A model generated the notes under the pieces. The model ran no database searches and had not been told where the DNA came from. It saw only the letters and a program-made list of their open reading frames with translations. The position numbers were made by a program, and so were the translations under genes. 64,000 bases of DNA from the NCBI RefSeq assembly GCF_017309385.1, contig NZ_JAFJMJ010000001.1, forward strand, positions 1,674,001-1,738,000, written 5' to 3'. Below are positions 42,871-43,735 of this stretch, one piece after another; position 1 is the stretch's first letter, and every line of letters begins with the position of its first letter. The stretch comes from Amycolatopsis sp. 195334CR. GTDB taxonomy: Bacteria > Actinomycetota > Actinomycetes > Mycobacteriales > Pseudonocardiaceae.

Positions 42871-42886
42871 AGTGATGCAGGTCACA
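42871..42886. promoter_or_regulatory. CRP-family binding site upstream of rpf
   Basis: AGTGATGCAGGTCACA matches TGTGA-N6-TCACA in nine of ten defined positions. In M. tuberculosis the cAMP receptor protein Rv3676 binds upstream of rpfA, so this site has a known parallel. It lies about five bases before a -10-like AATAAT, a position fitting activation or repression. Confidence 0.75.
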
Positions 42887-42961
42887 CCTCGAATAATTTC
42901 CGATCACGCCGAAGGTTACGTACCGTCGCTTTTCGGTTGGCCCCGACCGACCAGAGCAACA

Positions 42962-43039
42962 CCGGGATTCCGAAGCGCCGAACCCTGTCCGGCGGAATCC
43001 CGGCCCATACCCCGAGCGAAAGAAAACTTCCGGACAGGG
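42962..43039 (+). promoter_or_regulatory. Predicted H-type pseudoknot in the rpf 5' leader
   Basis: Two perfect stems interlock: CCGGGATTCCG (42962-42972) with CGGAATCCCGG (42993-43003), and CCCTGTCCGG (42983-42992) with CCGGACAGGG (43030-43039). The second stem's 5' strand abuts the first stem's 3' strand with no gap, allowing coaxial stacking. Loop 1 has 10 bases; loop 3 has 26 and is A-rich near its end (GCGAAAGAAAAC). It ends 51 bases before the rpf ATG. The conserved core of the ydaO (c-di-AMP) riboswitch is not visible. Confidence 0.7.
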
Positions 43040-43090
43040 ACGACACGAACCCCCCGATGTTCAGCAGGCGCGGGAAGTGAGTAGTAACCA

Positions 43091-43735
43091 ATGGCTTACC
43101 GAGGCAAGCACCGCAAGATGTCCGCCGCCACCAAGCACATCGCCCGCGTGGCGATCGCCGGTATGGCGGTCGGCGCCCCGCTCGCCATCGCCGCGACCCC
43201 CGCGCAGGCCGAAGGCACCAACTGGGACGCGATCGCCCAGTGCGAGAGCGGTGGCAACTGGTCCACCAACACCGGCAACGGCTACTCCGGTGGCCTGCAG
43301 TTCTCGCCGAGCACCTGGAAGGCCTACGGCGGCAAGGGCAGCGCCCACAACGCCTCCCGCGAGGAGCAGATCGCCGTGGCCGAGAAGGTCAAGGCTGGTC
43401 AGGGCATCAACGCGTGGCCGACCTGTGGCAAGAAGGGTGGCTCGTCCGCCAGCTACAAGGGCAAGAACACCCAGGGCTCGGCCAAGAAGAGCGCCCCGGC
43501 GGCGAAGAAGAGCGCCCCGAAGTCGGCCCCGGTCCAGCAGTCGGCCCCGGTGGCCACCGGCGTGGCGAAGTCGAACCCGGCCGGTGACTACACCGTGGTC
43601 GCGGGCGACACCCTGTCGAAGATCGCGTCGGCGCACGGCGTCGAGGGTGGGTTCGCCAAGCTGCAGGAGCTGAACAAGGAGTTCATCCCGAACGCGGACT
43701 TCATCGTGGTCGGCCAGAAGATCGCCACCAAGTGA
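43091..43735 (+). CDS. rpfA: Resuscitation-promoting factor with LysM domain
   Basis: A secreted muralytic enzyme (lytic transglycosylase-like) that revives dormant cells. The 214-residue precursor has a signal peptide (cut near AQAEGT at about 40), the Rpf domain with catalytic E52 in AIAQCESGGNW and the Cys pair C51/C116-region (WPTCGKKG), a Lys/Ala/Ser-rich linker and a C-terminal LysM domain (YTVVAGDTLSKIASAHG) that holds it in the wall. The ATG lacks a strong ribosome site (GGGAAG 13 bases upstream), which fits control by leader structure. Syntenic to Rv0867c. Confidence 0.96.
   Translation: MAYRGKHRKMSAATKHIARVAIAGMAVGAPLAIAATPAQAEGTNWDAIAQCESGGNWSTNTGNGYSGGLQFSPSTWKAYGGKGSAHNASREEQIAVAEKVKAGQGINAWPTCGKKGGSSASYKGKNTQGSAKKSAPAAKKSAPKSAPVQQSAPVATGVAKSNPAGDYTVVAGDTLSKIASAHGVEGGFAKLQELNKEFIPNADFIVVGQKIATK

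Follow-up and report, generated by a model that had tools for sequence, protein, structure and literature searches.

We suggest that the leader of rpf in the 64-kb stretch of Amycolatopsis DNA analysed here (the window) is the scaffold of a c-di-AMP riboswitch, which probably persists as a translational leader that is independent of the ligand or has been re-targeted. Judged by its sequence, this leader is a derivative of the ydaO riboswitch (RF00379) and not an unrelated device, and comparison with homologous leaders shows it to correspond to the 5' half of ydaO with an added pseudoknot clamp. The lineage of the window seems to have lost the c-di-AMP core as well as the c-di-AMP synthase.

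A covarying H-type pseudoknot in front of rpf

The H-type pseudoknot is real: it consists of two interleaved helices, each of which is conserved by covariation. On the + strand of the window, the 5' strand of stem A (42962-42972, CCGGGATTCCG) forms 11 bp with its 3' strand A' (42993-43003, CGGAATCCCGG) and the 5' strand of stem B (42983-42992, CCCTGTCCGG) forms 10 bp with B' (43030-43039, CCGGACAGGG), leaving 10 nt in loop 1, 0 in loop 2 and 26 nt in loop 3. All stem positions and lengths, the loops and the A-B-A'-B' order agree with the original prediction. The ATG of rpf (43091) lies 51 bases 3' of B'. When the + strand was scanned for H-type knots with one stem of at least 11 and the other of at least 10 perfect pairs within 120 nt, this was the sole knot of such size in the window; dinucleotide shuffles of the window (n=30) contained a mean of 0.033 such arrangements.

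Leader DNA was matched in 80/80 Amycolatopsis genomes. A covariance model built from 58 Amycolatopsis leaders (R1), whose matches were sought genome-wide and blind to gene positions, matched at E<=0.1 in 212 of the 249 family genomes and in 45 of the 46 genera; 37 family genomes were R1-negative, and among the 20 of these that were listed, 19 come from genera g3, g5 and g42. In the genus alignment (55 distinct rows), 7 of 27 pairs are doubly changed, with 0/500 shuffles as high. The family alignment A2 comprises 79 rows, 78 of them distinct and the spurious L180 (see below) included. In A2, which was fitted by the model to stem A and to a 5' hairpin, P0, and hence leans towards both, with stem B lying outside the model, 23 of 27 pairs have changes on both sides, namely 11 of 11 in stem A, 7 of 10 in stem B and 5 of 6 in P0. 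Its doubly changed cells number 255 against a shuffled mean of 48.3 (0/500 shuffles as high), and pairing, which is 93.9% in register, does not exceed 54.6% once the partners are slid by 1-3 columns. Thus, a search for compensatory changes in relatives, the check originally proposed for this pseudoknot, finds both stems covarying. The perfect 11-bp stem A of the window is atypical, 49 of 58 genus rows having one or more gaps or non-pairing positions in it, mostly central, and the good conservation of stem B is limited to its outer 8 bp.

Of the 79 R1 loci that were read, 76 could be checked for an rpf frame, recognised by its catalytic motif with at most 4 substitutions; the other three, all from Amycolatopsis, were pieces of insufficient length. 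Such a frame follows the pseudoknot leader in 75 of these 76 loci, and the predicted location in an rpf leader holds. The second and third leader copies per genome, among the loci read, also lie 5' of rpf paralogues. The single locus without rpf is L180, the weakest R1 match (20.3 bits), which we take to be spurious; it was dropped from alignment A3, from the core count in 61 and 17 leaders, from the covariation count in DAC-negative rows and from the 78-leader CCCCGA count given below, and A3 also excludes L141, L154, L161, L171-L174 and L179. Beyond the family, the signal is weak: a further search, R2, matched 8 genomes besides the source genome among 148 of the class (E<=0.1) and 72 of 259 genomes of the order (E<=0.5), 42 of these from the family. 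An rpf frame is present at 13 of the 20 order and class R2 places that were read; L245, L250 and L256 look like chance matches and were rejected. Four clamp-like, core-bearing leaders from other families (L239, L240, L241 and L244) have no rpf motif in the ~1 kb read, and RF00379, scanned in L239 and L240, is above cut-off in both.

In the window, rpf (43091-43735, + strand) encodes a resuscitation-promoting factor of 214 aa with Transglycosylas and LysM domains (Pfam PF06737, E 5.7e-33; PF01476, E 1.3e-8). Upstream of the promoter, the + strand carries AGTGA-N6-TCACA (42871-42886), which we take to be a CRP-like site and which belongs to a conserved genus block with the consensus TGTGACGTAGGTCAC. 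It is followed by a -10-like TACCGT (42921-42926) conserved in the genus alignment; a scan with the sigma-70 consensus found no promoter. We infer that transcription starts between this -10-like element and 42935. P0 (42935-42952, + strand; GGTTGG/CCGACC, loop CCCCGA) is a hairpin of 6 bp in which 99.6% of cells are paired, and its covariation argues for a transcript that starts before 42935. Near-copies of the rpf promoter block, spanning the CRP-like site to TTACGTACCGTCGCTT, also occur before other frames without a pseudoknot (L081, L082, L083 and L084, from G027, G007, G006 and G076; in L084, the upstream half only). P0 and a long-range helix, P1 (42975-42979 with 43067-43071), are further helices of the pseudoknot RNA. 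In loop 3, the motif ACCCCGAGCGAAAG (43009-43022, + strand) is identical in 58/58 genus rows. The hexamer CCCCGA occurs twice in the window leader, in the P0 loop (42941-42946) and in loop 3 (43010-43015). Among 78 leaders, it is found in the 5' hairpin region in 64, in loop 3 in 72 and in both places in 63, a conservation that none of the model's base pairs explains.

Descent of the leader from the ydaO riboswitch

Searched with Rfam at gathering score, the whole window gave no match, including to known pseudoknot riboswitch classes, and the Rfam check suggested with the original prediction thus returned no known class. At E<=5, the leader gave one chance microRNA match, which was set aside, and RF00379 was not found in 30 Amycolatopsis genomes at E<=0.1. 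In distant leaders of the family, the sequence beyond stem B' contains GGGGGAACC, GGGGTGAAGCC and CCGAACCCGACAGCTCACTTCGCAGGCG, i.e. the c-di-AMP riboswitch. RF00379 is above cut-off in 9 of 14 distant family loci scanned. Of 19 further loci, 14 are positive as well, each of these lying outside the family; the five misses among the 19 are two leaders of g48, a sister-family genus, and the window's three nearest relatives. The original prediction had noted that ydaO riboswitches precede rpf in other actinobacteria, which these homologous leaders confirm, and had proposed that the lineage of the window uses a different RNA device. The latter proposal is contradicted by the same RF00379-positive homologues and by the correspondence of P1 and P2 to ydaO helices. 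In other words, the candidate new riboregulator stands as a conserved, covarying knot without an Rfam match but not as a separate device in place of ydaO, being derived from it.

The correspondence is as follows. RF00379 has the order P1 cGCc, linker gAA, hairpin uccc/ggga and gCGgGGGAaCC, and the leader reads GCGCC-GAA-CCCUGUCC...GGACAGG-GGCGGGGGAACC in a register set by eye, Infernal having put P1 further 3' in such leaders. Because the order of elements corresponds, loop 1, with GCGCC at 42975-42979 (+ strand), carries the 5' strand of P1, and stem B is P2, the optional hairpin of RF00379, with B and B' as its 5' and 3' strands and A' within its loop. P1 is present in the window leader, supported by covariation and not by folding energy, and P2 follows P1 and a GAA-type linker, with stem B covarying. 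The core of RF00379, GGGGGAACC ... GGGGUGAA ... CCGAACCCGUCAGCU, within which the residues of the c-di-AMP pockets presumably lie, is absent from the window. In its former place (43040-43066, + strand), a comparison by eye with core-bearing leaders indicates that GAACCC is kept and that the GGGGGAACC and GGGGUGAA arms are gone.

Stem A is an extra that the RF00379 model does not contain, a clamp made by pairing of the P2 loop to the 5' flank. In a parse anchored on P1, with clamp-like defined as a score >=6 and P<=0.1, a clamp-like stem was present in 13 of the 14 parsed core-bearing leaders of the family (16 in total) and in 11 of 16 other-family leaders picked by R2, a set biased to clamp-like sequences. 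The clamp is in its canonical place in seven leaders from other families (L213, L238, L239, L242, L246, L248 and L249), and its positions are unusual in L237, L240, L241 and L244. Among loci found by RF00379 alone, a clamp-like stem was present in 1 of 21 parsed (25 in total); the P2 loop is shorter than 9 nt in 11 of the 20 clamp-less ones. Three g48 leaders outside this parse were checked by direct pairing.

Joint absence of the riboswitch core and the synthase

The DAC domain (PF02457, E<=0.001) had no match in the source genome, with a control that matched in 11/14 genomes. A DAC match is present in 33 of the 249 family genomes. DisA-like matches account for 27, 26 of them at E<=8e-24 and one, in G145, partial (E 8e-8) and counted because the other two RF00379-positive genomes of its genus have full DAC matches; the remaining six are divergent (E 3e-20 to 9e-16). 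The RF00379 cut-off is passed in 110 of the 148 genomes of the class and in 30 of the 249 of the family. In the family, the core and a DisA-like match occur together in 27 genomes, the core only in 3, a DisA-like match only in 0 and neither in 219, the six genomes with divergent DAC being counted here as without DisA; the association has a Fisher p of 4e-33, which ignores relatedness. Without G145, 26 genomes have both, 4 the core only and 0 a DisA-like match only. The three core-only genomes are all from g3 and 87-90% complete. In the class, 107 genomes have both the core (E<=0.01) and DAC, 4 the core only, 11 DAC only and 26 neither. Among relatives with DisA, Saccharopolyspora erythraea is one in which research on c-di-AMP has been published (PMC11076491).

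DisA-type DAC was found in 0/80 Amycolatopsis genomes, including 63 that were searched additionally; two of the 80, G040 and G051, have divergent DAC matches. Together with those in G099, G107, G136, G184, G279 and G310, these matches (E 3e-20 to 1e-9) lie in frames of 551-2110 aa and are possibly another kind of DAC enzyme; in these genomes, the ydaO core was below cut-off or unsought.

Of the 216 DAC-negative family genomes, 179 retain the pseudoknot. Both core motifs are present in 0/61 leaders of DAC-negative genomes, a set that does not contain the RF00379-positive leaders from g3 (three DAC-negative genomes), and in 12/17 leaders of DAC-positive genomes. Of the five DAC-positive misses, L158 comes from a genome whose DAC is divergent; the other four are extra copies in genomes that also carry an intact leader. 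Extra core-less pseudoknot leaders before rpf paralogues in DisA-positive genomes are L177, L178, L179 and L181. Two g47 genomes, G557 and G639, have no DAC match yet carry an RF00379-positive leader before rpf (L249 and L254); in both of these leaders, the core's CAGCU motif is shortened by one base.

Genera g46 and g25 hold both states. Leaders with an intact core in genomes with DisA (L310, L311, L314; L312, L313, L315, L157) are found beside leaders from genomes without a DAC match (L160, L161; L159, L167), in which the core is eroded and P0, the clamp and P2 are intact. In g48, 4/4 genomes have no DAC match, and RF00379 had no match in two of these four. The g48 leaders, in 3/3 genomes read, have the P0 loop motif, an 8-bp clamp, P2 and a 7-bp P1 before rpf; they are core-less, with a spacing of only 21 nt from B' to P1. 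Among DAC-negative rows (60 distinct), doubly changed cells number 43 in P0, 115 in stem A and 27 in stem B, each higher than 500/500 shuffles, which did not preserve relatedness. Identity within Amycolatopsis is 89% for the pseudoknot module (54 distinct among 80) and 59% for the stretch from B' to P1, the former core (74 distinct among 77 parsed). As binding core and c-di-AMP synthase are both seemingly lost, the scaffold would have been kept without its signal.

A retained scaffold and its possible function

The 3' strand of P1, GGCGC (43067-43071, + strand), lies beside the ribosome-binding region and covaries with loop 1. In 67 leaders, 328 of 335 cells of GCGCC/GGCGC are paired, with 14 double changes, and 0/2000 shuffles reach either value. 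For the 52 leaders of DAC-negative genomes, the figures are 254/260 cells and 12 double changes, again with 0/2000 shuffles; for the 15 DAC-positive leaders, too small a sample, 97/2000 shuffles do as well. The 3' strand was found by its similarity to a GGYRY consensus and not by its pairing with loop 1, and the shuffles control for the bias of this consensus towards pairable letters. The parse skipped three leaders as too short, and the automatic pick looks wrong in the short leaders L133, L139 and L140. Variants of P1 include GCACC/GGTGC, GTGCC/GGCAC and AACGCC/GGCGTT. The first base of the 3' strand is 19-28 nt 5' of the ATG in 62/67 leaders, and P1 ends ~14-23 nt upstream of the start codon; this distance is steady regardless of the length from B' to ATG, which varies from 30 to 186 nt. 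The Shine-Dalgarno sequence of the window is weak and does not overlap with P1. No terminator-like site was found on the + strand between 42800 and 43800, and intrinsic termination was therefore rejected as the mechanism. The steady place of P1 by the ribosome-binding region and the missing terminator together favour translational control.

Folding with ViennaRNA, which cannot include the pseudoknot, gave P1 a probability of 0.13 in the window with A' kept unpaired; the medians are 0.06 for short (n=17) and 0.63 for long (n=37) DAC-negative leaders, and 0.15 for DAC-positive leaders (n=16). The idea that deletion of the core closes P1 thermodynamically was not supported, as there is no trend to a stronger P1 in short core-less leaders. 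That P1 closes upon shortening of the core is something we infer with no help from thermodynamics.

By comparison with the homologous leaders, P1 joins loop 1 to the ribosome-binding region, stem B is P2, and A with A' forms the clamp. In the model that we suggest, what is left of this RNA would act as a structured leader of rpf, in which P1 restricts access of the ribosome and thus holds output of the wall-degrading enzyme at a fixed, low level in the absence of c-di-AMP. By pinning P2 as well as the 5' end, the pseudoknot would let P1 form or persist, and it may also protect the mRNA. A new trigger, such as a ligand, a protein, an ion or temperature, is conceivable. c-di-AMP riboswitches are described as off-switches, and a likely translational ydaO switch is that of nlpC in C. 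glutamicum (both in the available parts of PMC9960051). Loss of the ligand in an off-switch would result in over-expression of a wall-cutting enzyme unless the leader were held off otherwise; we propose that P1, P2 and the clamp are retained because a ligand-less leader must stay off.

Other readings would give the leader a different role. The pseudoknot could have been repurposed to sense a new ligand or protein, perhaps via the CCCCGA loops, and control rpf translation through the old P1. The two hexamers, unpaired by the model, are indeed conserved (64/78 and 72/78), and both are retained in the three leaders of g48, whose genomes have no DAC match. However, CCCCGA is also present in family leaders with the c-di-AMP core and may serve the scaffold, and inspection by eye of core-bearing leaders outside the family did not reveal P0 with CCCCGA in several of them; we regard this reading as unlikely, if worth keeping in mind. 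Alternatively, the leader could be a passive structure that stabilises the 5' end of the mRNA or shields it from RNases, P1 being incidental. This would fit a thermodynamically weak P1 and the position of a hairpin and a pseudoknot where the mRNA probably begins. Against it stand the covariation of P1 in DAC-negative leaders and the steady spacing of 19-28 nt between P1 and the ATG (62/67 leaders), despite 30-186 nt from B' to ATG, and we find it doubtful.

Continued sensing of c-di-AMP by a diverged pocket, the ligand being made by a cyclase that escaped recognition or taken from the surroundings, would agree with the ydaO-like P1, P2 and rpf context and with the divergent DAC matches in two Amycolatopsis genomes. 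It is rendered very improbable by the DAC-negative source genome (control 11/14), the 0/80 genomes of the genus with DisA-type DAC, the loss of the GGGGGAACC and GGGGUGAA arms in the window and the finding that 0/61 DAC-negative leaders bear both core motifs. As for a new and unrelated riboswitch class, as originally proposed, the classic H-type geometry and the window's lack of an Rfam match at gathering score are what it would predict, but a series of homologous leaders reaches RF00379-positive ones and P1 and P2 correspond helix by helix, so that we give it hardly any credence. A retained ydaO scaffold acting on translation is the reading that we prefer.

Because synthase and riboswitch core are jointly missing in most sampled members of a large family, the system is a natural experiment, apparently repeated in a sister-family genus, in which the outer scaffold is kept with strong covariation. 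It is testable whether the scaffold survives as a ligand-free translational element or has been re-targeted to a new signal; the latter, if true, would exemplify a riboswitch that has exchanged its signal in nature. The comparison also adds a conserved clamp pseudoknot to the c-di-AMP riboswitches of rpf leaders; in the family, the Rfam model finds 30/249 genomes and the clamp model 212/249. In the open-access literature, as far as its available text extends, we found no description of the clamp, of core-less leaders or of the loss of DisA in the family; the clamp may have been drawn elsewhere, the subscription literature being mostly outside our search.

Among pseudoknotted riboswitches, preQ1, SAM-II and SAM/SAH are of the H-type, with the A-B-A'-B' order and adjoining stems, and their stems are shorter than those of the window. 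The window knot differs from them in that it is the peripheral clamp of a larger fold and has no Rfam match; the term H-type is used for the SAM/SAH riboswitch in the available part of PMC7367207. Riboswitches of the ydaO class in actinobacterial rpf leaders have been published (PMC9960051, PMC6009663 and PMC9569102, each available in part). The window leader shares with ydaO/yuaA (RF00379) P1, the linker GAA, the P2 hairpin and the rpf target, and homologous leaders are above the gathering cut-off. By contrast, it has neither the two-pocket core nor an RF00379 match, its genome has no DAC match, and its A/A' clamp is absent from the Rfam model. With the rpfB RNA switch of M. tuberculosis, which we liken to it by description, it has in common that it is a leader RNA of an rpf gene; the available part of PMC6009663 presents that switch as transcriptional and, it would seem, confined to some of the pathogenic species. 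A further system for comparison is domain 2 of the nadA riboswitch, an aptamer-like domain that "has withdrawn from detection" according to the accessible text of PMC7708056. That domain, as described there, is one of two tandem domains, whereas the scaffold in the window is the leader's only aptamer and the synthase is also absent.
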